Origin: Massilia sp. METH4
GTDB taxonomy: Bacteria > Pseudomonadota > Gammaproteobacteria > Burkholderiales > Burkholderiaceae_D
Direction of reading: 5' to 3'
Assembly: GCF_037094685.1 (NCBI RefSeq)
Contig: NZ_CP146614.1
Span: 3,472,001 to 3,536,000 of the forward strand
Length of the DNA stretch: 64,000 nucleotides
Positions 22,270 to 39,901 of the stretch are shown piece by piece. The notes below the pieces were generated by a model. That model saw nothing but the letters and a program-made list of their open reading frames with translations, was not told the origin of the DNA and ran no database searches. The translations under genes and the position numbers were made by a program. Position 1 is the stretch's first letter. Every line of letters begins with the position of its first letter.

Positions 22270-23061
22270 ATGAAACGCTTACTCCTATCGATCTATCTCG
22301 CCTGCCTGTCGCTGTTCGTACTGCCATTCGCATCGGCTGCCGAGCTGACGCTCGGCCCGGGCGACATCGTCAAGATCTCCGTCTACAACAATCCGGATCT
22401 TGGCCTGGAAACCCGCATCGGCGATTCGGGCAACATCACCTTCCCGCTGATCGGGCAGGTACAGGTCGGCGGTCTCACCGTTCCCTCGGCGGAGCGCAAG
22501 ATCTCCGAGGCGCTGGACAAGGGCGGCTTCATCAAGCGTGCCCAGGTCAACATCATCGTCACGTCCATCCTCAGCCAGCAGGTATCCGTCCTGGGCCAGG
22601 TCAACCGTCCCGGCCGCTATCCGCTGGATGCGCGCCGCAGCCTGCTCGACGTCCTGGCCCTGGCCGGCGGCTTCGGTCCGGAAGCCGGCGATACGCTGAA
22701 CCTCATCCGTAACCGCGACGGCCAGGTCAGCAAGCAGGTCATCGATGTCGTGGAAATGGTCCGCAAGGGCGACCTGAACAAGGATGTCGAGCTGGCCGCC
22801 AACGACGTCATCTATGTCGAACGTTCGCCGCGCTTCTACGTCTACGGTGAAGTGCAGCGTCCCGGCAGCTTCCGCCTTGAACGCTCGATGACCGTGCTCC
22901 AAGCCCTCGCCGTGGGTGGCGGGCTCACGCCGCGCGGCACCGAACGGGGTATGATCATCAAGCGTCGTGACGCAAACGGCAATCTGCAGATGATCGAAGC
23001 CAAGAAGGATGAGCTGCTGCAGAACGACGACATCCTGTACATCAAGGAGAGCTGGTTCTGA
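22270..23061 (+). CDS. epsE: EpsE polysaccharide export protein (Wza/OPX family)
   Basis: 263 residues. Signal peptide to about residue 23 (SAA-E), then the polysaccharide export domain LTLGPGDIVKISVYNNPDL and two SLBB domains (VSVLGQVNRPGRYPLDARRS; FYVYGEVQRPGSFRLERSM). There is no lipobox and no obvious C-terminal amphipathic helix like that of Wza, so it would need a partner such as EpsL to cross the outer membrane. It would form the periplasmic part of the export channel with EpsF. It is 25 nt after epsD and 35 nt before epsF. Confidence 0.92.
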   Translation: MKRLLLSIYLACLSLFVLPFASAAELTLGPGDIVKISVYNNPDLGLETRIGDSGNITFPLIGQVQVGGLTVPSAERKISEALDKGGFIKRAQVNIIVTSILSQQVSVLGQVNRPGRYPLDARRSLLDVLALAGGFGPEAGDTLNLIRNRDGQVSKQVIDVVEMVRKGDLNKDVELAANDVIYVERSPRFYVYGEVQRPGSFRLERSMTVLQALAVGGGLTPRGTERGMIIKRRDANGNLQMIEAKKDELLQNDDILYIKESWF

Positions 23062-23096: not shown

Positions 23097-24500
23097 ATGA
23101 ATCTCCATCTTTTATTGCAGATACTGAAGGCGCGCCGGCGCGTCCTGATCGGCACCTTCCTGCTGACGGTCGTCTCGACGCTGATCGTCAGCTCTCTTCT
23201 GCCCAAGACCTACACCGCGACCAGTTCGGTGGTCATGAATTACAAGGGCGTCGATCCGCTGACGGGCCTGGCCCTGCCAGGGCAGTTGATGCCGGGCTAT
23301 ATGGCCACGCAACTCGACATCATCAGCAGCAAGAATGTCGCCCTGCGCGTGGTGGATCGCCTGCGCCTCGCCGAAAGCCCCGCCGTCAATGCGCAGTTCA
23401 TGGCCGCGACCGAAGGGCGCGGCAATGTGCGCGACTGGCTGGCCGGCTTGCTGATGAAGAAGCTGGAAGTGAAGCCGTCGCGCGAGAGCAGCGTCGTGAA
23501 CATCAGCTTCAACGGTTCCGACCCGCAATTCGCGGCAGCGGTGGCGAATGCCTATGCTGAGGAATACCAGAACGTCACGATCCAGTTGAAGGTCGACCCG
23601 ATGAAACGCGCCAGCAGTTTCTTCGATTCGCAAATGAAGACGCTGCGTGACAATGTCGAGGCCGCGCAGAGCCGCCTGTCGAAATACCAGCAGGAGCACA
23701 ATATCGTCAGCGTCGACAACCGTCTGGATGTCGAAACGAACCGCCTGAACGACCTGTCCGCACAGCTGGTGGCCGCGCAGGCCCAGTTGATGGAAGCGCA
23801 GTCCCGTCAGCGCATGGCGAGCTCGGGTGGCGCAGCCGCTCCGGACGTCGCTTCCAATCCGCTGATCCAGAACCTCAAGCTGAACTTGAACGCAGCCGAA
23901 GGCAGGCTGGCCGAAGCGGAGCAGCGCCTGGGCCGCAACCACCCGCAGTTCCAGAGCCTGCGTGCCGAGGTGGACAAGCTGCAGCGTGAACTGAACCGCC
24001 AGACGGCGCTGACGTCGCAAAGCGTCGGCAACAACGCCAGCGTGCTGCAGCAGCGTGAAGCCTCGCTGCGCGAAGCACTGGCCGAACAGCGCGCCAAGGT
24101 GCTGGAAATGAACCGCACGCGCGATGAACTGAACGTTCTCGCCAAGGATGTCGAGACGGCCCAGCGTGCCTTCGATACGGCAGCCCAGCGCTTCTCGCAG
24201 ACGCGCATCGAATCGCACGCCGAACAATCGGATGTGATGGTGCTGAACCCGGCGACGGCACCGACCGAGCCGTCGAGCCCGCGCATCCTGCTCAATACGC
24301 TGCTGGCTGTGCTGCTGGGCACCATGCTGGGTATCGGCTTCGCCATCCTGCTGGAGTTGCTCGATCGCCGCGTGCGCATGAACAGCGACATGGAAAGCCT
24401 TGGCATTCCGCTGCTGGGCACCGTCGACTGGCGCCCCGTCAAGCGCAGCCGCATGGGCGTGCTGGCCAAACTGGCGCCGCGCCGCCTCAGCCTGAATTAA
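23097..24500 (+). CDS. epsF: EpsF chain-length determinant (Wzz-type polysaccharide co-polymerase)
   Basis: 467 residues with the polysaccharide co-polymerase plan: an N-terminal transmembrane helix (RVLIGTFLLTVVSTLIVSSL), a long periplasmic coiled-coil region (about 170-400, Gln/Glu/Arg-rich) and a C-terminal helix (ILLNTLLAVLLGTMLGIGFA), preceded by the Pro-rich ATAPTEPSSP motif. It should set chain length and bridge polymerase and export channel. The cytoplasmic kinase-like partner is the separate gene epsG, immediately downstream. Confidence 0.92.
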   Translation: MNLHLLLQILKARRRVLIGTFLLTVVSTLIVSSLLPKTYTATSSVVMNYKGVDPLTGLALPGQLMPGYMATQLDIISSKNVALRVVDRLRLAESPAVNAQFMAATEGRGNVRDWLAGLLMKKLEVKPSRESSVVNISFNGSDPQFAAAVANAYAEEYQNVTIQLKVDPMKRASSFFDSQMKTLRDNVEAAQSRLSKYQQEHNIVSVDNRLDVETNRLNDLSAQLVAAQAQLMEAQSRQRMASSGGAAAPDVASNPLIQNLKLNLNAAEGRLAEAEQRLGRNHPQFQSLRAEVDKLQRELNRQTALTSQSVGNNASVLQQREASLREALAEQRAKVLEMNRTRDELNVLAKDVETAQRAFDTAAQRFSQTRIESHAEQSDVMVLNPATAPTEPSSPRILLNTLLAVLLGTMLGIGFAILLELLDRRVRMNSDMESLGIPLLGTVDWRPVKRSRMGVLAKLAPRRLSLN

Positions 24501-24512
24501 GAGATGACTATC

Positions 24513-25385
24513 ATGACTTTGCCTATCCACTCTATCCCGCCGGCGGCGAAAGTAACGGCGGCCTCCAGCATCGGCCATGTCTTGTTGGACATGGGGAAGA
24601 TCACCCCCGAGAATGCCGAAGCCGTGCTGCGTCTGCAAAAGGAGAAAGGCGTCCGGTTCGGTGAAGCCGCCGTGCAGCTTGGCTTCATCACGGAAGAAGA
24701 CATCCAGAAGGTACTCGCGCGCCAATTCGACTACCCGTACCTCCATTCGGCGGACAAGCGCTTTTCGTCCAAGCTCGTGGCCGCCTATGAGCCGTTCTCG
24801 CCGCAAGTCGAAGCGCTGCGCTCCGTGCGCAGCCAGCTGATGCTGCGCTGGTTTGCCCAGGCCCGGAAGTCGCTCACCGTCCTGTCGCTCGAGCCGGGCG
24901 ACGATGGCGCCAACCTGGCCTCGAACCTGGCAGTCGTGTTCTCCCAGCTGGGCGAGCGTACGCTGCTGGTGGACGCGAACATGCGCAATCCGCGCCAGCA
25001 GAATATCCTCAGCCTCGCCCAGCGCAACGGCCTGTCGGATGTGCTGGCCGGGCGTGCGGAACTGGACGTGATCGTGCCGGTCGACGCCTTCGTGTCGCTG
25101 TCGCTGCTGCCCGCCGGCACGGTGCCGCCGAACCCGCAGGAGCTGCTGGGGCGCGATGCCTTCCATCGCAATCGCGAGGCGCTCGAGCGGATGTTCGATG
25201 TCGTGCTGTACGACGCGCCGCCGCTGGCCGAGAGCACGGACGGCCTGACGCTGGCCGCCCGCACCGGCGGCGTGTTGCTTGTCCTGCGCAGGAATACCAC
25301 GCGCTATGAAGACGTGGCCCTTGTCGCCGACCGCATTGGACAGATGGGCGCGGCGCTGGTCGGCACTGTGATGGTGGACAACTAA
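24513..25385 (+). CDS. epsG: EpsG, BY-kinase-like chain-length protein with a degenerate Walker A
   Basis: About 290 residues. An N-terminal MshEN/GspE-N-like segment (HVLLDMGKITPENAEAVL to QFDYPYL) precedes a CpsD/CapB-type P-loop ATPase fold (ALRSVRSQLMLRWF, NLAVVFSQLGERTLLVD, FDVVLYDAPP). EpsG proteins normally carry a Walker A such as GEGRS/GEGKS; here the segment reads EPGDDGANLASNLA, without Lys/Arg and Ser/Thr. Walker A' reads LLVDANMR where the family has DADMR. No C-terminal tyrosine cluster is visible. ATP binding and autophosphorylation are therefore doubtful, and it may act only as a scaffold for EpsF. The ATG at 24513 has GAG nine bases upstream; 24504 is an alternative. Its stop overlaps xrtB by one base. 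Confidence 0.88.
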   Translation: MTLPIHSIPPAAKVTAASSIGHVLLDMGKITPENAEAVLRLQKEKGVRFGEAAVQLGFITEEDIQKVLARQFDYPYLHSADKRFSSKLVAAYEPFSPQVEALRSVRSQLMLRWFAQARKSLTVLSLEPGDDGANLASNLAVVFSQLGERTLLVDANMRNPRQQNILSLAQRNGLSDVLAGRAELDVIVPVDAFVSLSLLPAGTVPPNPQELLGRDAFHRNREALERMFDVVLYDAPPLAESTDGLTLAARTGGVLLVLRRNTTRYEDVALVADRIGQMGAALVGTVMVDN

Positions 25386-26302
25386 TGGCTGCCCCGCTGG
25401 TGCCCTGGACGGTTTCGCCCGCGCAGACGTTCCGCGCGGCGTTGCCTTCGTGGTGGCCGATCCTGCTCGGCATGGCGCTTCTTTTCGTGCCGACCCTGTA
25501 TACCCTGCTCACGGGTATCTGGTCGACGGAGGAACAGGCGCACGGCCCGATCATCCTCGTGCTGTCGATCTGGTTGAGCTTCCGCCTCTGGCCGTCCGTG
25601 CAAGCCTTGCCGGCTTACACCGGCAAGTCGGTCCTGGGCTGGGTGCTGACCGTGGCGGCGCTGCTGCTGTACATCCTGGGCCGCTCGCAGGCGATCACGG
25701 CATTCGAGATCCTGGGATGCATCATGCTCCTGATGGGAGTGCTGCTGATCAAGCGTGGCCCGGCCGCGCTGCGCACGCTGTGGTTCCCGTTCTTCTTCAT
25801 GATGTTCATGATCCCGCTACCGGGACCGGTGGTCAGCATGCTGACCATGCCGATGAAGATGGCGGTGTCCCATGTCACCGAACATATCCTGTATGCGGCG
25901 GGCCTGCCGATCGCCCGTAGTGGCGTGATCCTGCAGGTGGGCCAGTATCAGTTGCTGGTGGCCGATGCCTGCGCGGGCCTGCAGACGCTGCTGACCCTGG
26001 AATCGCTTGGATTGTTCTACCTGAACCTGGTGCGCCATCCTTCCGCTTTCCGTAACCTCGCGCTAGCAATTCTTATCATCCCGATCTCGTTCACGGCGAA
26101 TGTGATCCGCGTAACCGTGCTGTGCCTGATCACGTATTTCATGGGCGACGCGGCGGGGCAGGGTTTCCTGCACGGCTTTGCCGGCATGGTTCTGTTCATC
26201 ACGGCTCTCGTGCTGACCATCGCCGCCGACTCGGCGCTGCAATGGTATGTGCGCAGGAAAGAACGGCAAACGCCTGCTGCCGAAGTAAGGAAAATCGCAT
26301 GA
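25385..26302 (+). CDS. xrtB: Exosortase B
   Basis: 305 residues, about eight transmembrane helices. The exosortase catalytic triad is present: C196 in VADACAGLQTL, R242 in FTANVIRV and H263 in FLHGFAGM. Exosortases recognise the C-terminal PEP motif, hydrophobic helix and basic tail of exported proteins, and cleave and probably transfer them. Subtype B is the one linked to EpsL/D/E/F/G EPS operons in beta-proteobacteria. It starts at ATG 25385 inside the epsG stop (TAATG) and overlaps epsI by ATGA. Four PEP-CTERM proteins in this window are candidate substrates. Confidence 0.94.
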   Translation: MAAPLVPWTVSPAQTFRAALPSWWPILLGMALLFVPTLYTLLTGIWSTEEQAHGPIILVLSIWLSFRLWPSVQALPAYTGKSVLGWVLTVAALLLYILGRSQAITAFEILGCIMLLMGVLLIKRGPAALRTLWFPFFFMMFMIPLPGPVVSMLTMPMKMAVSHVTEHILYAAGLPIARSGVILQVGQYQLLVADACAGLQTLLTLESLGLFYLNLVRHPSAFRNLALAILIIPISFTANVIRVTVLCLITYFMGDAAGQGFLHGFAGMVLFITALVLTIAADSALQWYVRRKERQTPAAEVRKIA

Positions 26303-26979
26303 CTCGCACTTTAATGACCAGTCTTGTACTCGGCGCCCTGATGCTTTCCGCTGCCGCGACCACGCGCGTCGTGACGCCGACGGCGAAAATGGCCGACAAT
26401 ACGGTGAAATTCAATCTCGAGCAGATGATCCCGTCCCAGTTCGGGCAGTGGCAGGTCGATACGACGATCGTGCCGCTGAAGCTCGATCCGGAAACCGAGG
26501 CGAAGCTCAACAAGCTGTACAACCAGACCGTTACCCGCACCTATGTCAACCAGAACGGCGACCGCGTCATGCTGTCGATCGCTTATGGCGGTGACCAGAG
26601 CGAGGGACTGGGCGTGCACAAGCCCGAGGTCTGCTATGTCGCGCAAGGGTTCGACATGCGCACCAACAAGCCTGGCCAGTTGAACACGCAATACGGCAAC
26701 CTGCCCGTGCGCCGCCTGATGGCGGTGGCGGGCGAGCGCCACGAGCCGATCACCTACTGGCTCACGATCGGCAACAAGATTGCCCTTTCCGGGCTGGACT
26801 CGCGCCTGACGATGCTGCGTTACGGGCTCGGCGGTGTTATTCCGGACGGCATGCTGGTCAGGGTGTCGGCAATCGATCGCGATGCCGAGCATTCCTATCG
26901 AGTCCAGGATAGATTCGTGCAGGACATGCTGACTGCGGTGAGTCCCGAGGCAAGGAACCGTCTCATCGGTGTGTTCTGA
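26299..26979 (+). CDS. epsI: EpsI family protein
   Basis: 226 residues with an N-terminal hydrophobic anchor or signal (LMTSLVLGALMLSAAATT) and the EpsI domain, marked by GVHKPEVCYVAQGF and the later TYWLTIGNKIALSGLDSRL. EpsI is fused to or encoded beside many exosortases and is thought to cooperate with them in the periplasm; its biochemistry is not established. The conserved Cys in the CY motif is present. It overlaps xrtB by four bases (ATGA), indicating coupled synthesis. Confidence 0.9.
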   Translation: MTRTLMTSLVLGALMLSAAATTRVVTPTAKMADNTVKFNLEQMIPSQFGQWQVDTTIVPLKLDPETEAKLNKLYNQTVTRTYVNQNGDRVMLSIAYGGDQSEGLGVHKPEVCYVAQGFDMRTNKPGQLNTQYGNLPVRRLMAVAGERHEPITYWLTIGNKIALSGLDSRLTMLRYGLGGVIPDGMLVRVSAIDRDAEHSYRVQDRFVQDMLTAVSPEARNRLIGVF

Positions 26980-31413: not shown

Positions 31414-33648
31414 ATGAAATTAAGTCAATTTATTCGCGCTACGCTCCTTATCGCGATTCCTGGATTGGTAGGCCATGCCCACGCTGATTGGGCACAATCC
31501 GCATCGCCGCTGGTTATCCGGCCCTTGCCGAACGATTACCAAACCCAGGTTCAGAACCCACCCACTTTCTCGTGGGCGCGTCATTCCAGTAATCCGTCGT
31601 CTTACGTCGTGGAGGTTCGCCAGGGTACCAACGTGGTGTACACCTACACCTCCACCCGCAACTGGCTGTTGCCCTCGGCACCGCTGGCGGTGGGCCAGTA
31701 TTCGTGGCGTGTTCGTCCGGCCGACCGGATCGAATGGTCCACGGACCGGTTCTTCACCATCGCGGAAAAATCGTCGACCTTCGTCGTTCCCGAGAATTCC
31801 ACGCTGCGCGGCAGGGTTCTGGCCAAGGCCCGCCCCCGTGGCCTGCCGACCAACTTCGTGAAGTACGCATCCTGGTCCGCCGAGATGAAGGCGGAGCGCG
31901 GCGCCGCGCTGACCACCTTGCAGAAGGAAGTCGACTGGTACATCACGAACCTGCCTGTGATCTCGGATTCGAAGTGGACGCTCAACACGGCGTCCGTGAC
32001 TACCGCGGCCCAGGCCGCGCAGCAAACCGATGTCCGCAAGCAGTTGAATACGCGCAAGCGCCAGCTCGAATCCGCCGCGCTGCTGTACCACCTGCTCGGC
32101 ACCCAGAAATACCTGACCGAGGCCCTGCGCCGCGGCGATGAGCTGGCGGCCATGAACCCCCTCGGCCCGACCAGCTATGCGCAACAGGACCAGGCGCCGT
32201 TCGGGATTGCGTCGGCCCTGAGCCGTGGGATCGATATCCTGGGCTCCGGCCTCGACTCCACGCGCCGGGCCAAATGGGTCGCGTCGATCCGCGCCTACGG
32301 TAGCCAGATCTACGCCGATCTTGCCAAGGACAACGTACGGACCGATGAGTTCCCGTTCGATTCGCACGGCATCAGCAATACCGCCGGTCTCGCCGAAATC
32401 GCCGTGCTGGCGCTTGGCGATGTCGACGAAGCGCAAACGTGGTTCGACTTCTCGCTGCGCTCGTATATCAGCTCGCTGAGCCCGTGGAGCGGCCCGGAGG
32501 GCGGTTTCGCGAACGGTACCGCCTACGCCGAATACGCGCTGGGTCTGTACTCGACCGTGTGGCAGCCGGTGCTGCATGCCATGGGATTGAATCTTTACGA
32601 CAAGCCGTGGTCCTACGGGTTCCTGCGATTCTTCATGTACTTCGTTCCGCCGGGTCAGAAGAGCCATGTGTTCGGCGACGGCCACGAGGTTACGCCCATG
32701 CAGTCGACGATGAAAGGCTATGCGACCAATTTCGCCGATCCGGCCGCCGCGTGGTACTCGAACGCGCTGCAAGGCCAGCATGACGCGCTCACGCTGCTGA
32801 AGTCGAGCTATCCGTTGCCTTCCGCGACCGTGGCGGCCGCTGGACCTGGTACGCCTTCCGCCGTCTTCCCGAGCATCGGCTGGGCGGCAATGCACAGCAA
32901 CCTGCGTGACATGAACCGTACGTCGGTCTATTTCAAGTCCAGCCCGTATGGCTCGTACAACCACAGCCACGGTGACCAGAATACCTTCGTGCTGTTCAAG
33001 GGCGGCATTCCACTGCTGGGCGAGGGTGGCTATTACGACTATTATGGCTCGCCGCTGTGGAAAGGTTACTATCGCAGCACCAGGTCGCATAACGGCATTA
33101 CGTTCGACGGCGGCATCGGCCAGGCGACGGACGTGGACAATTCCGCCCAGCTCGAGAACGACGGCAAGATCACGGCCTACTCCCATACGCCGGACATGGA
33201 CTACGTGGAAGGTATCGCCACCAAGGCGTACGGCGGCGCGTTGACGAACGCACAGCGCAAGCTGTGGTATCTCCGGGCCGAGGATGCGGTTGTGGTTCAC
33301 GACACGCTGGCGTCGGCGACTTCGCGGACTTATGAGTGGAATGTCCACGCGTTTGCCCCGATTACCGACCTGTCGTCGGGGGCGCTCCAGGTAACCAGCC
33401 AGGGTCAGACTGTCTGCATCCGGCCGGTGACTTCCGGATACCACGTTGTCCGGCCGACCAATACGCCACAGTTGAGCGGCCGTACCGAGTACCATGTCGT
33501 CCTGACCAAGACGGGCAAGGCGATGACCGGCGAGTTCCTGGTCGTGCTCGATGTCGGTTGCAAGAATCCGGCCATTTCGCTGACCACCACGTCCAGTGGA
33601 CGCGTGCTGAAAGTCGGCGCGCAGTCCCTGGTCCTGCCGGGGCGGTAA
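31414..33648 (+). CDS. Exported heparinase II/III-fold protein (DUF4962-type), putative EPS lyase
   Basis: 744 residues with a signal peptide ending near residue 24 (AHA-DW). An N-terminal beta-sandwich resembling DUF4962 (PPTFSWARHSSNPSSYVVEV, Fn3-like) leads to an alpha/alpha toroid (about 150-470) and a C-terminal beta domain. The heparinase II/III signature NHSHGDQN lies at residues 516-523, followed by the glycine- and tyrosine-rich LLGEGGYYDYYGSP and RSTRSHNGITFDG. Enzymes of this fold cleave uronic acid-containing polymers by beta-elimination. Inside an EPS locus with an AlgD-like dehydrogenase, it likely trims or releases the locus's own uronate polymer. It is followed by a strong terminator. 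Confidence 0.83.
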   Translation: MKLSQFIRATLLIAIPGLVGHAHADWAQSASPLVIRPLPNDYQTQVQNPPTFSWARHSSNPSSYVVEVRQGTNVVYTYTSTRNWLLPSAPLAVGQYSWRVRPADRIEWSTDRFFTIAEKSSTFVVPENSTLRGRVLAKARPRGLPTNFVKYASWSAEMKAERGAALTTLQKEVDWYITNLPVISDSKWTLNTASVTTAAQAAQQTDVRKQLNTRKRQLESAALLYHLLGTQKYLTEALRRGDELAAMNPLGPTSYAQQDQAPFGIASALSRGIDILGSGLDSTRRAKWVASIRAYGSQIYADLAKDNVRTDEFPFDSHGISNTAGLAEIAVLALGDVDEAQTWFDFSLRSYISSLSPWSGPEGGFANGTAYAEYALGLYSTVWQPVLHAMGLNLYDKPWSYGFLRFFMYFVPPGQKSHVFGDGHEVTPMQSTMKGYATNFADPAAAWYSNALQGQHDALTLLKSSYPLPSATVAAAGPGTPSAVFPSIGWAAMHSNLRDMNRTSVYFKSSPYGSYNHSHGDQNTFVLFKGGIPLLGEGGYYDYYGSPLWKGYYRSTRSHNGITFDGGIGQATDVDNSAQLENDGKITAYSHTPDMDYVEGIATKAYGGALTNAQRKLWYLRAEDAVVVHDTLASATSRTYEWNVHAFAPITDLSSGALQVTSQGQTVCIRPVTSGYHVVRPTNTPQLSGRTEYHVVLTKTGKAMTGEFLVVLDVGCKNPAISLTTTSSGRVLKVGAQSLVLPGR

Positions 33649-36831: not shown

Positions 36832-37931
36832 AAAAAATCGTCATGATCGGTACTCGCTTCGACACGATGGGCGGTATCTCGTCGGTGGTCAACGTGTACC
36901 GGGCTGCCGGGCTGTTCGACCGATACAATATTCGCTACATCGCCACCCATTGCGACGGCGGCAAGTTCGCCAAGCTCCGCATCTCGGTCGGGGCCTTGCT
37001 GACTTTCCTGTGGCTGCTGATCAGCGGCCAGGTCGACCTTGCGCATATCCACGTGTCGTCGCGTGCGAGCTTCTGGCGCAAGCTGCCATTCTTCACGCTC
37101 GCCCATCTGGCGGGGAGGGCGACGATCGTGCACCTGCACAGCGGTGCGTTCCACCATTTCTATGACAAATGCTCGTCACGCGGGAAGGCGGCGATCCGCT
37201 ACATGTTCGACAATGCTTCCCGCGTCATCGTCTTGTCCGACACGTGGAAGACCTGGGCACAGACGATCAGCACGAACCGCGCAATTGTCGCCATCTACAA
37301 TCCGGTGCAGGTCCCGCCGGAGACGCGCTCGCTGCGCAATGCTGCGCCGGTGGTGCTGATGCTGGGCCGCATCGGCCAGCCAAAAGGCAGTTACGATCTG
37401 CTCGAAGCGACGGTGCCGCTGGCGGCGGCCGTTCCGGCGCTGCAACTGCGCCTCGGTGGCGACGGCGACCTGGAGCGGGCTTCCGCCCGGGCGGCCGAGC
37501 TGGGCATTGCCCGGAACGTGAATCTGCTGGGCTGGGTGGTCGGCGATGCCAAGCACCGCGAGCTTGCAACGGCCCGGGTGTATGTGCTGCCTTCCTATAA
37601 CGAAGGCTTGCCGATGAGCGTGCTCGAAGCGATGGCCGCGGGCTTGCCTGTGGTCACCACTCCGGTCGGCGGGATTCCGGAAGCGGTGACCGACGGCGTG
37701 GAAGGCTACCTGATTCAGCCAGGCGACCAGGAGGCCCTGCGCGCGCGCGTCGAAGCACTGCTGCGGGACGATGAACTTGCCGAGCGGATGGGCCAGGCGG
37801 CACGGCGCAAGATCCAGACCACTTTCTCCGTCGAAGCGATCTTGCCGCGCATCGAAGCCATTTATGCCGAACTGGGTATCACGCGCGCCGCGCCGGTACT
37901 CGCGACGCGGCCGTTGACGGAGAAGCAATGA
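36828..37931 (+). CDS. Family 4 glycosyltransferase
   Basis: 367 residues, GT-B fold. It starts KKIVMIGTRFDTMGGISSVV, a glycine-rich acceptor-side loop. The donor half has VVLMLGRIGQPKGSYDLLEA, LPSYNEGLPMSVLEAMAAGLPVV (E-x7-E) and TTPVGGIPEAV. It should add a hexose to the lipid-linked repeat unit in the cytoplasm; the donor sugar cannot be read from sequence. Four-base overlaps on both sides place it in the acetyltransferase-lyase operon. Confidence 0.9.
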   Translation: MKKIVMIGTRFDTMGGISSVVNVYRAAGLFDRYNIRYIATHCDGGKFAKLRISVGALLTFLWLLISGQVDLAHIHVSSRASFWRKLPFFTLAHLAGRATIVHLHSGAFHHFYDKCSSRGKAAIRYMFDNASRVIVLSDTWKTWAQTISTNRAIVAIYNPVQVPPETRSLRNAAPVVLMLGRIGQPKGSYDLLEATVPLAAAVPALQLRLGGDGDLERASARAAELGIARNVNLLGWVVGDAKHRELATARVYVLPSYNEGLPMSVLEAMAAGLPVVTTPVGGIPEAVTDGVEGYLIQPGDQEALRARVEALLRDDELAERMGQAARRKIQTTFSVEAILPRIEAIYAELGITRAAPVLATRPLTEKQ

Positions 37932-39901
37932 GTTCCCTGACTTGGAAAATGCGCCGGCTCAGTCTGATGAGCCCGGCAGAAATCGTGTGGCGCGTGCAGC
38001 AAATCGCCCAGAAGAAGGCGAGCAAGATCGGGCTCGGCCTGGCGATGGCGCCGCCCGCGCCGCGGCTGGACAAGACCGGCGCGGTCTTCATCGGCGAGGC
38101 GGCGGAAGGCGTGGATCTGCCGTCGCTGCGCGCCGCGGCGGACGCAATCCTGGCCGGACGGTGGAACGTCTTCGCCATGCATGGGCTGCAACTTGGTTTC
38201 CCGCCGCAATGGAATCGCGACCCGAAGACGGGCACCGTGGCGCCGATGAAGCTGGGCAAGGCCATCGACTATCGCCGCGAATCGGTCGTCGGCGACATCA
38301 AGTACTTGTGGGAACCCAGCCGGCACCTCGAGCTTGTGACGCTGGCGCTCGCCTGGCGCGCCACGAACGAGCAGCGTTACGCCGCCGGCGCCCGCCTGCT
38401 GCTCGAATCGTGGTTCGACCAGTGTCCTTATCCGCGCGGCGTGCATTGGACCAGCTCCCTGGAACTCGCGGTGCGGCTCTTGAACTGGGCGTTTGCCTGG
38501 CAATTGCTGGGTGGTGCCGGCAGCGCCATGTTCCGCGGCGAGGATGGCATGCGGTTCCAGCGGCGCTGGCTGGACAATATCTACCAGCATTGCCACTTCA
38601 TCCGCGGTTACCTGTCGCATCATTCCTCGGCCAACAATCACCTGTTCGGCGAGTACATGGGCCTGTTCGTAGCCAGCGTGCAATGGCCGTGCTGGACTGA
38701 AAGCGCTCGTTGGGAAGCCTTCGCGCGCCGCGGACTGGAGGTCGAGGCGCTCAAGCAGAACACTGCCGATGGCGTCAACAAGGAGCAGGCCATCTATTAC
38801 CAGCACGAAGTGATGGACATGATGCTGCTGTGCCATCATATCGGCGCGGCCAACGGCGCGGGGTTCTCCAGTGCCTTCCTGGGGCGCCTGGAGCGGCTCG
38901 CCGAATTCGTCGCAGCGATGATGGATGTCGGCGGCAACGTGCCGATGACGGGCGATGCCGACGATGCGCAAATGGTCAGGTTGTCCCACGAGGCGGGCTG
39001 GAGCCCTTATCGTTCGCTGCTGGCCAGTTGCGCCCTGCTGTTCCAGCGGGGCGACTTCAAGCGCAAGGCCGGCCGGCTCGACGACAAGAACCGCTGGCTG
39101 TTCGGTGCGAACGGCATGGCCGCATGGGCGGCGCTGGCCGAGGCTCCCGAGCAGCCGGTGCTGGCGTTTCCCGAGGGCGGGTACTACTTGTTGGGCAAGG
39201 ATTTCGGCACCCCCGACGAGGTCCGGATCGTCGTCGACTGTGCACCGCTCGGTTACCTGTCCATCGCGGCGCACGGCCATGCCGATGCGCTGGCCTTTAC
39301 CCTGTCAGCCGGCGGTGAAGAACTGCTGATCGATCCCGGCACCTATGCGTATCACACGCAGAAGGCCTGGCGTGACTATTTCCGCAGCACGGCCGCCCAC
39401 AATACGGTCCAGGTCGACGGGCAGGACCAGTCGGAAATCGGCGGCAATTTCATGTGGTTGAAAAAAGCCAACGCCAAGGCGCTGGCGCACGTGGCTTCCG
39501 GGGCCGTGCAGCAGTTCGAAGGGGAGCACGATGGTTACCGCCGGTTACAGGACCCCGTATTGCACCGCCGCAAAATACATTTTGATGCAACTTGTAATGC
39601 TATTGTTGTAAAAGATATACTAGAATGTCGGGGCGATCATGATATCGCCTTGCACTGGCACTTTGCCGAAGGCTGCCGGGTGGAGACAACTGGAACGGAA
39701 CTTGTCGTGAACGCCCGGAGCAAGGCGCTGCGCATGCAGTGCACCTTGCCTGGCGCCGCCGAATTGCTGCGCTGCAGCGAGGCACCGATCGGTGGGTGGA
39801 TCTCGCGCACGTTTGACGAAAAGGCGGCCATTACGACGGCCGTCTGGCGCGGCAAGATTCACGGCAAGACCGAAATCGAAACCCGGATCACGCTGGCGTG
39901 A
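37928..39901 (+). CDS. Heparinase II/III family protein (no signal peptide seen)
   Basis: 657 residues. An N-terminal alpha/alpha toroid (about 60-390, including HHSSANNHLFGEYMGLF and NKEQAIYYQHEVMDMMLL) leads to a heparinase II/III beta domain with AAHGHADALAFTLSAGGEELL (HGH at 449-451), LIDPGTYAYH and FRSTAAHNTVQVDG. This matches lyase-like proteins found in many EPS/capsule loci. Unlike the protein at 31414, the N-terminus (MSSLTWKMRRLSLMSPAEIVWRV) is not a cleavable signal, so its compartment is uncertain. An AT-rich patch at about 39570-39625, unlike the rest of the gene, contains a promoter-like element. Confidence 0.85.
   Translation: MSSLTWKMRRLSLMSPAEIVWRVQQIAQKKASKIGLGLAMAPPAPRLDKTGAVFIGEAAEGVDLPSLRAAADAILAGRWNVFAMHGLQLGFPPQWNRDPKTGTVAPMKLGKAIDYRRESVVGDIKYLWEPSRHLELVTLALAWRATNEQRYAAGARLLLESWFDQCPYPRGVHWTSSLELAVRLLNWAFAWQLLGGAGSAMFRGEDGMRFQRRWLDNIYQHCHFIRGYLSHHSSANNHLFGEYMGLFVASVQWPCWTESARWEAFARRGLEVEALKQNTADGVNKEQAIYYQHEVMDMMLLCHHIGAANGAGFSSAFLGRLERLAEFVAAMMDVGGNVPMTGDADDAQMVRLSHEAGWSPYRSLLASCALLFQRGDFKRKAGRLDDKNRWLFGANGMAAWAALAEAPEQPVLAFPEGGYYLLGKDFGTPDEVRIVVDCAPLGYLSIAAHGHADALAFTLSAGGEELLIDPGTYAYHTQKAWRDYFRSTAAHNTVQVDGQDQSEIGGNFMWLKKANAKALAHVASGAVQQFEGEHDGYRRLQDPVLHRRKIHFDATCNAIVVKDILECRGDHDIALHWHFAEGCRVETTGTELVVNARSKALRMQCTLPGAAELLRCSEAPIGGWISRTFDEKAAITTAVWRGKIHGKTEIETRITLA
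39592..39621 (+). promoter_or_regulatory. Promoter-like element inside the heparinase gene
   Basis: TTGTAA (39592-39597), an 18-nt spacer and TATACT (39616-39621), in an AT-rich island within a GC-rich coding region, 322 nt before the sugar dehydrogenase start. It could drive the precursor genes (dehydrogenase through manC) separately from the upstream operon. Confidence 0.4.

Follow-up and report, generated by a model that had tools for sequence, protein, structure and literature searches.

A probable tyrosine pseudokinase, EpsG, in an XrtB-associated exopolysaccharide operon of Massilia sp. METH4

The epsG locus and its catalytic motifs

We investigated EpsG, encoded in a 64,000-nucleotide stretch of the Massilia sp. 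METH4 genome (contig NZ_CP146614.1, positions 3,472,001 to 3,536,000; hereafter the window, in whose numbering the coordinates below are given), within an exopolysaccharide (EPS) operon that carries exosortase B (XrtB). The epsG gene (24504..25385, on the forward strand like all genes of the operon) encodes a protein of 293 residues, which matches TIGR03029 with 346.6 bits (cut-off 313.8), has an AlphaFold pLDDT of 90.2 and joins an MshEN-like N-terminal domain to a domain of the bacterial tyrosine kinase (BY-kinase, BYK) fold devoid of the catalytic residues. The gene order is epsE-epsF-epsG-xrtB-epsI, with epsI of the B-type, so that epsG lies between epsF and xrtB. The epsE gene (22270..23061; TIGR03028, 336.6 bits) encodes a polysaccharide export protein, and epsF (23097..24500; TIGR03017, 620.6 bits over residues 1-444) a 467-residue polysaccharide co-polymerase of the PCP-2 type without a BYK domain, the C-terminal tail of which (24366-24497) ends in APRRLSLN. 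The xrtB gene (25385..26302; TIGR03113, 372.3 bits) starts on the last base of epsG, and it is followed by epsI (26287..26979; NF045609, 303.8 bits), whose start was chosen by us.

In the open 293-residue reading frame, the segment covering the P-loop and Walker A' is VLSLEPGDDGANLASNLAVVFSQLGERTLLVDANMRNP, followed by VVLYDAPP at residues 233-240 (25200..25223), in which the Walker B Asp is kept; a longer segment reads EPGDDGANLASN...LVDANMRNP. In a gapless alignment to relatives, GDDGA (residues 132-136, 24897..24911) is the counterpart of GDGAS or GDGRS and replaces G[DE]G[KR]S: Asp has taken the place of the Gly that precedes the Lys position, Gly that of the Lys/Arg, and Ala that of the Ser/Thr. 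In Walker A' (VDANMR, residues 156-161, 24969..24986) an Asn stands for the second Asp, giving D-A-N. The C-terminus, LVGTVMVDN, has no tyrosine tail. The motif ExxRxxR, which we take to be the ring-interface motif of BY-kinases, is kept at residues 103-109 (24810..24830), and the BYK fold is retained according to both the alignment and the lists of structural matches, the latter barely covering the MshEN domain. Of the features of an active BY-kinase, EpsG therefore lacks the Walker A Lys, the DxD and the Tyr cluster, and presents the Walker B Asp and the fold; of those of a BY pseudokinase in a two-part PCP-2, it shows the BYK fold, the lost catalytic motifs and Tyr tail, and a PCP-2 partner without a BYK domain, and it would be expected to bind that partner and to be needed for EPS. 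A sequence-only reading of this DNA had reported the loss of the Walker A Lys and Ser, VDANMR instead of D-A-D, and a preserved Walker B and fold framework; all of this is borne out by the sequence, the Walker A register of that reading being one residue off. Among the rows checked, the step to GDDGA (GEDGA in P0003) is common only to the window and the four proteins P0002-P0005, which are 78-87% identical to EpsG, come from other contigs and carry the same residues at all three positions.

Loss of the Walker A residue among EpsG homologues

Among 8000 candidates scored, 7956 homologues were found and 120 listed. None of these 120, own entry included, presents a G-x-G-[KR]-[ST] core; the commonest type among them is GDGAS...VDANLR, under names that include Duganella, Janthinobacterium, Massilia and Rugamonas. 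Genome searches recovered EpsG with a score above the cut-off from 89 of the 148 relatives; with E <= 1e-60 as the threshold, 20 of the 369 genomes searched across the class and 95 of the 399 across the order gave a match. To these, 80 named loci were added. EpsG was found in 287 loci, and collapsing repeated cores left 267 rows (the window, 262 loci and four P proteins); since relatedness and score governed the choice of loci, row counts describe this sample and not prevalence. The Lys position is occupied by Arg in 103 rows and by Lys in 18; the other 146 rows have Ala (67), Val (25), Thr (19), Cys (12), Ser (11), Gly (8), Ile (3) or Leu (1) there. We refer to EpsG without the Walker A Lys/Arg as the lost class and to Lys/Arg-bearing EpsG as the kept class. 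The loss described in the earlier reading is not specific to this operon: the Lys/Arg is missing throughout the listed homologues and in 146 of the 267 rows. Of that reading's own proviso, that most orthologues might carry the same residues and be active, the half concerning residues thus holds.

The second Asp of Walker A' is Asn in 131/146 lost-class rows and Asp in 110/121 kept-class rows. A test on independent pairs of whether the two losses go together found 3 supported pairs, a number that falls short of significance. ExxRxxR is present in both classes (145/146 lost, 119/121 kept). A C-terminal tyrosine cluster is absent from both classes in the 267 rows, 224 of which have no C-terminal Tyr (one of them truncated), 41 have one and 2 have two. 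One genome, G035, holds both classes of EpsG (loci L084 and L106).

Trees were built without the motif columns and midpoint-rooted. With FastTree, 131 lost-class and 2 kept-class rows form one clade of 133 with a support of 97, and at least 8 changes are needed overall. A quick IQ-TREE run on 121 representatives under 66% identity, from which L296, L109, L294, L108, L291 and L290 were excluded by hand, gave a clade in which 41 of 45 members are lost-class (SH-aLRT 91), with at least 7 changes. The FastTree clade includes Massilia, Janthinobacterium, Oxalicibacterium, Nitrosomonas, Thiobacillus, Methylophilaceae, Methylotenera, Methylophilus, Methylobacillus and a Hydrogenophilales metagenome-assembled genome; smaller losses stand apart on the IQ-TREE tree, e.g. 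L137, L140 and L263/L099/L286. We take the loss to be the derived state, because BY-kinases outside the family, such as two in this genome (see below), have the Lys, and Lys- and Arg-bearing rows surround the clade. The simplest order would be that the tyrosine tail was lost, that Lys then became Arg, and that Arg was finally lost together with the second A' Asp. With no Tyr cluster in either class and Arg prevailing over Lys in the kept class, we saw nothing to indicate autokinase activity in any EpsG, and the baseline of kinase-type EpsG proteins assumed by the sequence-only reading finds no evidence here.

Selective constraint on the two domains

In the Oxalobacteraceae, the family of the window, the ratio of non-synonymous to synonymous substitution rates (dN/dS) among lost-class rows is 0.07 for the MshEN domain and 0.32 for the BYK core (279 overlapping pairs, 72 rows), compared to 0.27 for both in the kept class (41 overlapping pairs, 19 rows). 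In these 41 kept-class pairs the GDGxS core shows zero non-synonymous changes, which argues for some function of this core. Over all rows, with non-overlapping pairs, the MshEN/core distance ratio is 0.57 in the lost class (61 pairs) and 0.91 in the kept class (43 pairs; Mann-Whitney on the MshEN index, p 6.5e-4), while the P-loop/core ratio is 1.17 and 0.74, respectively. Compared with Lys/Arg-bearing relatives, lost-class EpsG has a less constrained P-loop and a more constrained MshEN domain, chiefly in the Oxalobacteraceae. These ratios point to a catalytic loop that was released while the protein, and its N-terminal domain above all, was kept.

The C-terminal tail of EpsF

C-terminal tails of PCP proteins dock on the kinase-fold protein in CapAB and EcpK/EpsV (PMC12004946). 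In the Oxalobacteraceae, an [IVL]xW motif occurs in the EpsF tail of 73/79 lost-class and 0/24 kept-class loci, and a basic LRLN-like end in 48/79 and 0/24. In other families these patterns are found in 5/62 and 12/62 lost-class loci and in none of 94 kept-class loci in either case. A stricter first pattern had matched 21/63 lost-class rows of the genus of the window, 5/78 other lost-class rows and 1/118 kept-class rows. The patterns were picked after inspection of the tails and the classes follow phylogeny, so the counts are descriptive; they indicate operon lineages with matched partners, not causation.

The MshEN domain and cyclic di-GMP

The N-terminal domain carries an MshEN-type cyclic di-GMP (c-di-GMP) motif pair (residues 22-45 and 51-74, 24567..24725; NF053729, 52.8 bits, cut-off 38), i.e. 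two 24-residue motifs in tandem, five residues apart, the layout given for MshEN/GSPII c-di-GMP receptors in PMC5013675 and PMC11731258. By our own count, 18 of 22 key ligand positions fit. The sequence departs from the published motif by Ser for the Arg at position 1, Lys at position 11 and Ala at position 17 of motif I, and by Ala at position 6 of motif II. In most EpsG of both classes the motif-I Arg is missing and position 11 is Lys or Arg. According to PMC11731258, the GSPII-B domain of PilF binds tightly although the Arg is absent; PMC5013675 puts weight on the hydrophobic positions and mentions, in connection with EPS in Methylobacillus, an MshEN protein that we presume to be EpsG. At E <= 1e-9, judged by interpolation to lie near the cut-off, NF053729 matches 26/34 lost-class EpsG (window included) and 14/39 kept-class EpsG (Fisher p 0.00085, the rows being related); this comparison covers the window and 72 of the 80 named loci, L133, L143, L149, L163, L168, L173, L184 and L196 being left out. 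With 79 GGDEF matches in this genome, production of c-di-GMP is very likely. EpsG might be controlled by it through MshEN.

Other BY-kinases and tyrosine phosphatases

The search for a second intact BY-kinase that the earlier reading had proposed returned two in this genome, both stand-alone, both TIGR03018 and XrtA-associated, with GEGKT and VDAD motifs and the C-terminal tails KYDYHYG and HHYAYYDQG; each lies directly 3' of its own TIGR03007 chain-length gene. Sixteen relatives rated 100% complete (12 lost-class, 4 kept-class) were searched as well. In three of them, G031, G074 and G008, EpsG is the sole match at 1e-18, and in the lost-class genomes G031 and G074 other matches at 1e-3 reach at most 43.2 bits, compared to 115 and 130 for EpsG. 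Lost-class EpsG thus occurs in species without a recognisable BY-kinase.

No tyrosine phosphatase gene adjoining epsG was found in the flanks of either class, in a weak search with two query proteins and many short flanks. Pfam gives three low-molecular-weight tyrosine phosphatase matches in the genome, none inside the window; one of them (C1:1997857-1998261) is some 14 kb away from an XrtA-associated BY-kinase. In three other genomes (G043, G023 and G021), which carry a GDGRS-type EpsG, open reading frames of 828, 828 and 782 residues (L316, L317 and L325) include a BY-kinase-type domain with VGAS or VGAA in place of the Walker A Lys, a kept DAD and no Tyr within the last 26 residues; they are possibly a separate, fused pseudokinase.

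EpsG as a candidate pseudokinase

The retained BYK fold and ExxRxxR, the absence of the Walker A Lys/Arg and Ser/Thr, of the second A' Asp and of the Tyr tail, and the clade-wide loss, taken from sequence and model, make it likely that EpsG is a BY pseudokinase, which would form a two-part PCP-2 co-polymerase with EpsF, EpsG being the cytoplasmic and EpsF the membrane half. EpsG probably has the role of a scaffold and not of an enzyme. It would dock the C-terminal tail of EpsF and hold an EpsF/EpsG ring together around the polymerase with no need for tyrosine phosphotransfer; in a similar way, Wzc K540M, an artificial mutant of the Walker Lys, is still octameric. The signal that switches the ring might come, more tentatively, via the N-terminal MshEN domain instead of phosphotyrosine. 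The idea put forward in the sequence-only reading, an EpsG that is catalytically silent but may still bind EpsF, thus remains the best one and is borne out in part; the loss is not specific to this operon, and an active-kinase baseline finds no evidence. A broader version, which we regard as rather doubtful, is a handover of control across the clade, in which XrtB-type EpsF/EpsG would have dropped nucleotide and phosphotyrosine control and be gated now by c-di-GMP via the fused MshEN; if true, one named family would hold an enzyme-like and a second-messenger-gated state.

Several observations weigh against the pseudokinase scaffold. The first A' Asp and the Walker B Asp are both retained in 134/146 lost-class rows and the Ser/Thr after the Lys position in 125/146, and because of this nucleotide binding may persist across most of the lost clade; PDB titles also include Wzc K540M with MgADP. 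Two Methylococcales EpsG with GEGRS and DxD, L178 and L204, fall inside the lost clade whichever tree is taken and may represent a reversal, a transfer or a misplacement. At matched divergence the MshEN/core contrast shrinks (lost versus kept, 0.51 vs 0.62, 0.52 vs 0.88 and 0.77 vs 1.02), and it weakens outside the Oxalobacteraceae (0.81 vs 0.93, compared to 0.48 vs 0.81 within). The 22 key MshEN positions show no difference between the classes (17.12 vs 16.98, p 0.95). The retained residues, together with the Gly before the Lys position (129/146 lost-class rows) and the MgADP-bearing Wzc mutant, would suit a nucleotide-sensing pseudokinase, in which ATP/ADP is still bound without the Lys and binding alone is the switch; we consider this unlikely, as the subclade of the window is also without that Gly and Ser, and the lost-class P-loop is less constrained relative to the core than that of the kept class.

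The strongest competitor, to which we give somewhat less than an even chance, is that the EpsG family ceased to be an autokinase before the Lys/Arg was lost, that Lys/Arg-bearing EpsG are ATPase-type switches, and that the loss removed a remnant. The missing Tyr cluster in both classes and the excess of Arg over Lys fit this, whereas the unchanged GDGxS core of the kept class does not; this explanation differs from the pseudokinase scaffold in timing only. Phosphorylation of EpsG in trans would have its enzymes in the two intact BY-kinases of this genome with their Tyr tails, but it is very unlikely, since each is part of an XrtA system and has a chain-length gene of its own next to it, G031 and G074 also carry lost-class EpsG yet have nothing else that scores over 43.2 bits, and EpsG offers no tyrosine cluster as a substrate. 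Also highly improbable is an active, non-canonical kinase in which another residue replaces the Lys: the first A' Asp is kept and the Walker B Asp mostly so, yet the residues at the Lys position are varied, the P-loop is less constrained and there is no Tyr tail. Local decay, a pseudogene or a sequencing error in this genome could appeal to the narrow distribution of the full GDDGA-type step, and was rejected with near certainty, the frame being open, the loss shared by independent homologues and dN/dS low in lost-class Oxalobacteraceae; as to the sequencing error that the earlier reading had allowed for, P0002-P0005 make it very unlikely.

Relation to known systems

EpsG/EpsF resembles EcpK/EpsV of Myxococcus xanthus (PMC12004946), in which a stand-alone BYK-fold protein without the Lys and the Tyr tail is paired with a PCP-2 protein without a BYK domain and EPS production is independent of phosphorylation. 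EcpK is reported to have none of the three Walker motifs, whereas EpsG keeps the first A' Asp and the Walker B Asp, a less complete loss; unlike EcpK, EpsG adjoins epsF, carries MshEN and has Lys/Arg-bearing sisters in the same named family. The main text of PMC12004946 mentions neither EpsG nor MshE. HfsB/HfsA of Caulobacter crescentus (via PMC12004946), likened here by description, is likewise a stand-alone pseudokinase needed with a PCP-2 partner, but belongs to the holdfast pathway. The BY-kinases of CapB/CapA and Wzc, unlike EpsG, have the Walker A Lys, DxD and a Tyr tail. Among the matches listed in the open-access literature we found no EpsG pseudokinase in print; new relative to known pseudokinases are a loss on the scale of a clade in a family that bears the name tyrosine kinase, the fusion to MshEN, the setting in an XrtB operon, the Lys/Arg-bearing sisters and the shift in constraint.

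Tyrosine phosphorylation cycles are central to models of how the length of capsule and EPS chains is controlled; a large EpsG clade is unlikely to use this chemistry. The lost clade lies partly in culturable environmental bacteria, Lys/Arg-bearing EpsG from the same genus provide a natural control, and the two complete genomes without another BY-kinase-level match are clean test systems. The NCBI name 'tyrosine kinase EpsG' is not to be taken as activity. The gene name itself is used inconsistently, since an excerpt of PMC4195743 describes epsG of Herbaspirillum seropedicae as a glucosyltransferase gene. Elsewhere in the polysaccharide region of the window, two proteins (31414-33648 and 37928-39901) have heparinase II/III-like C-terminal domains.
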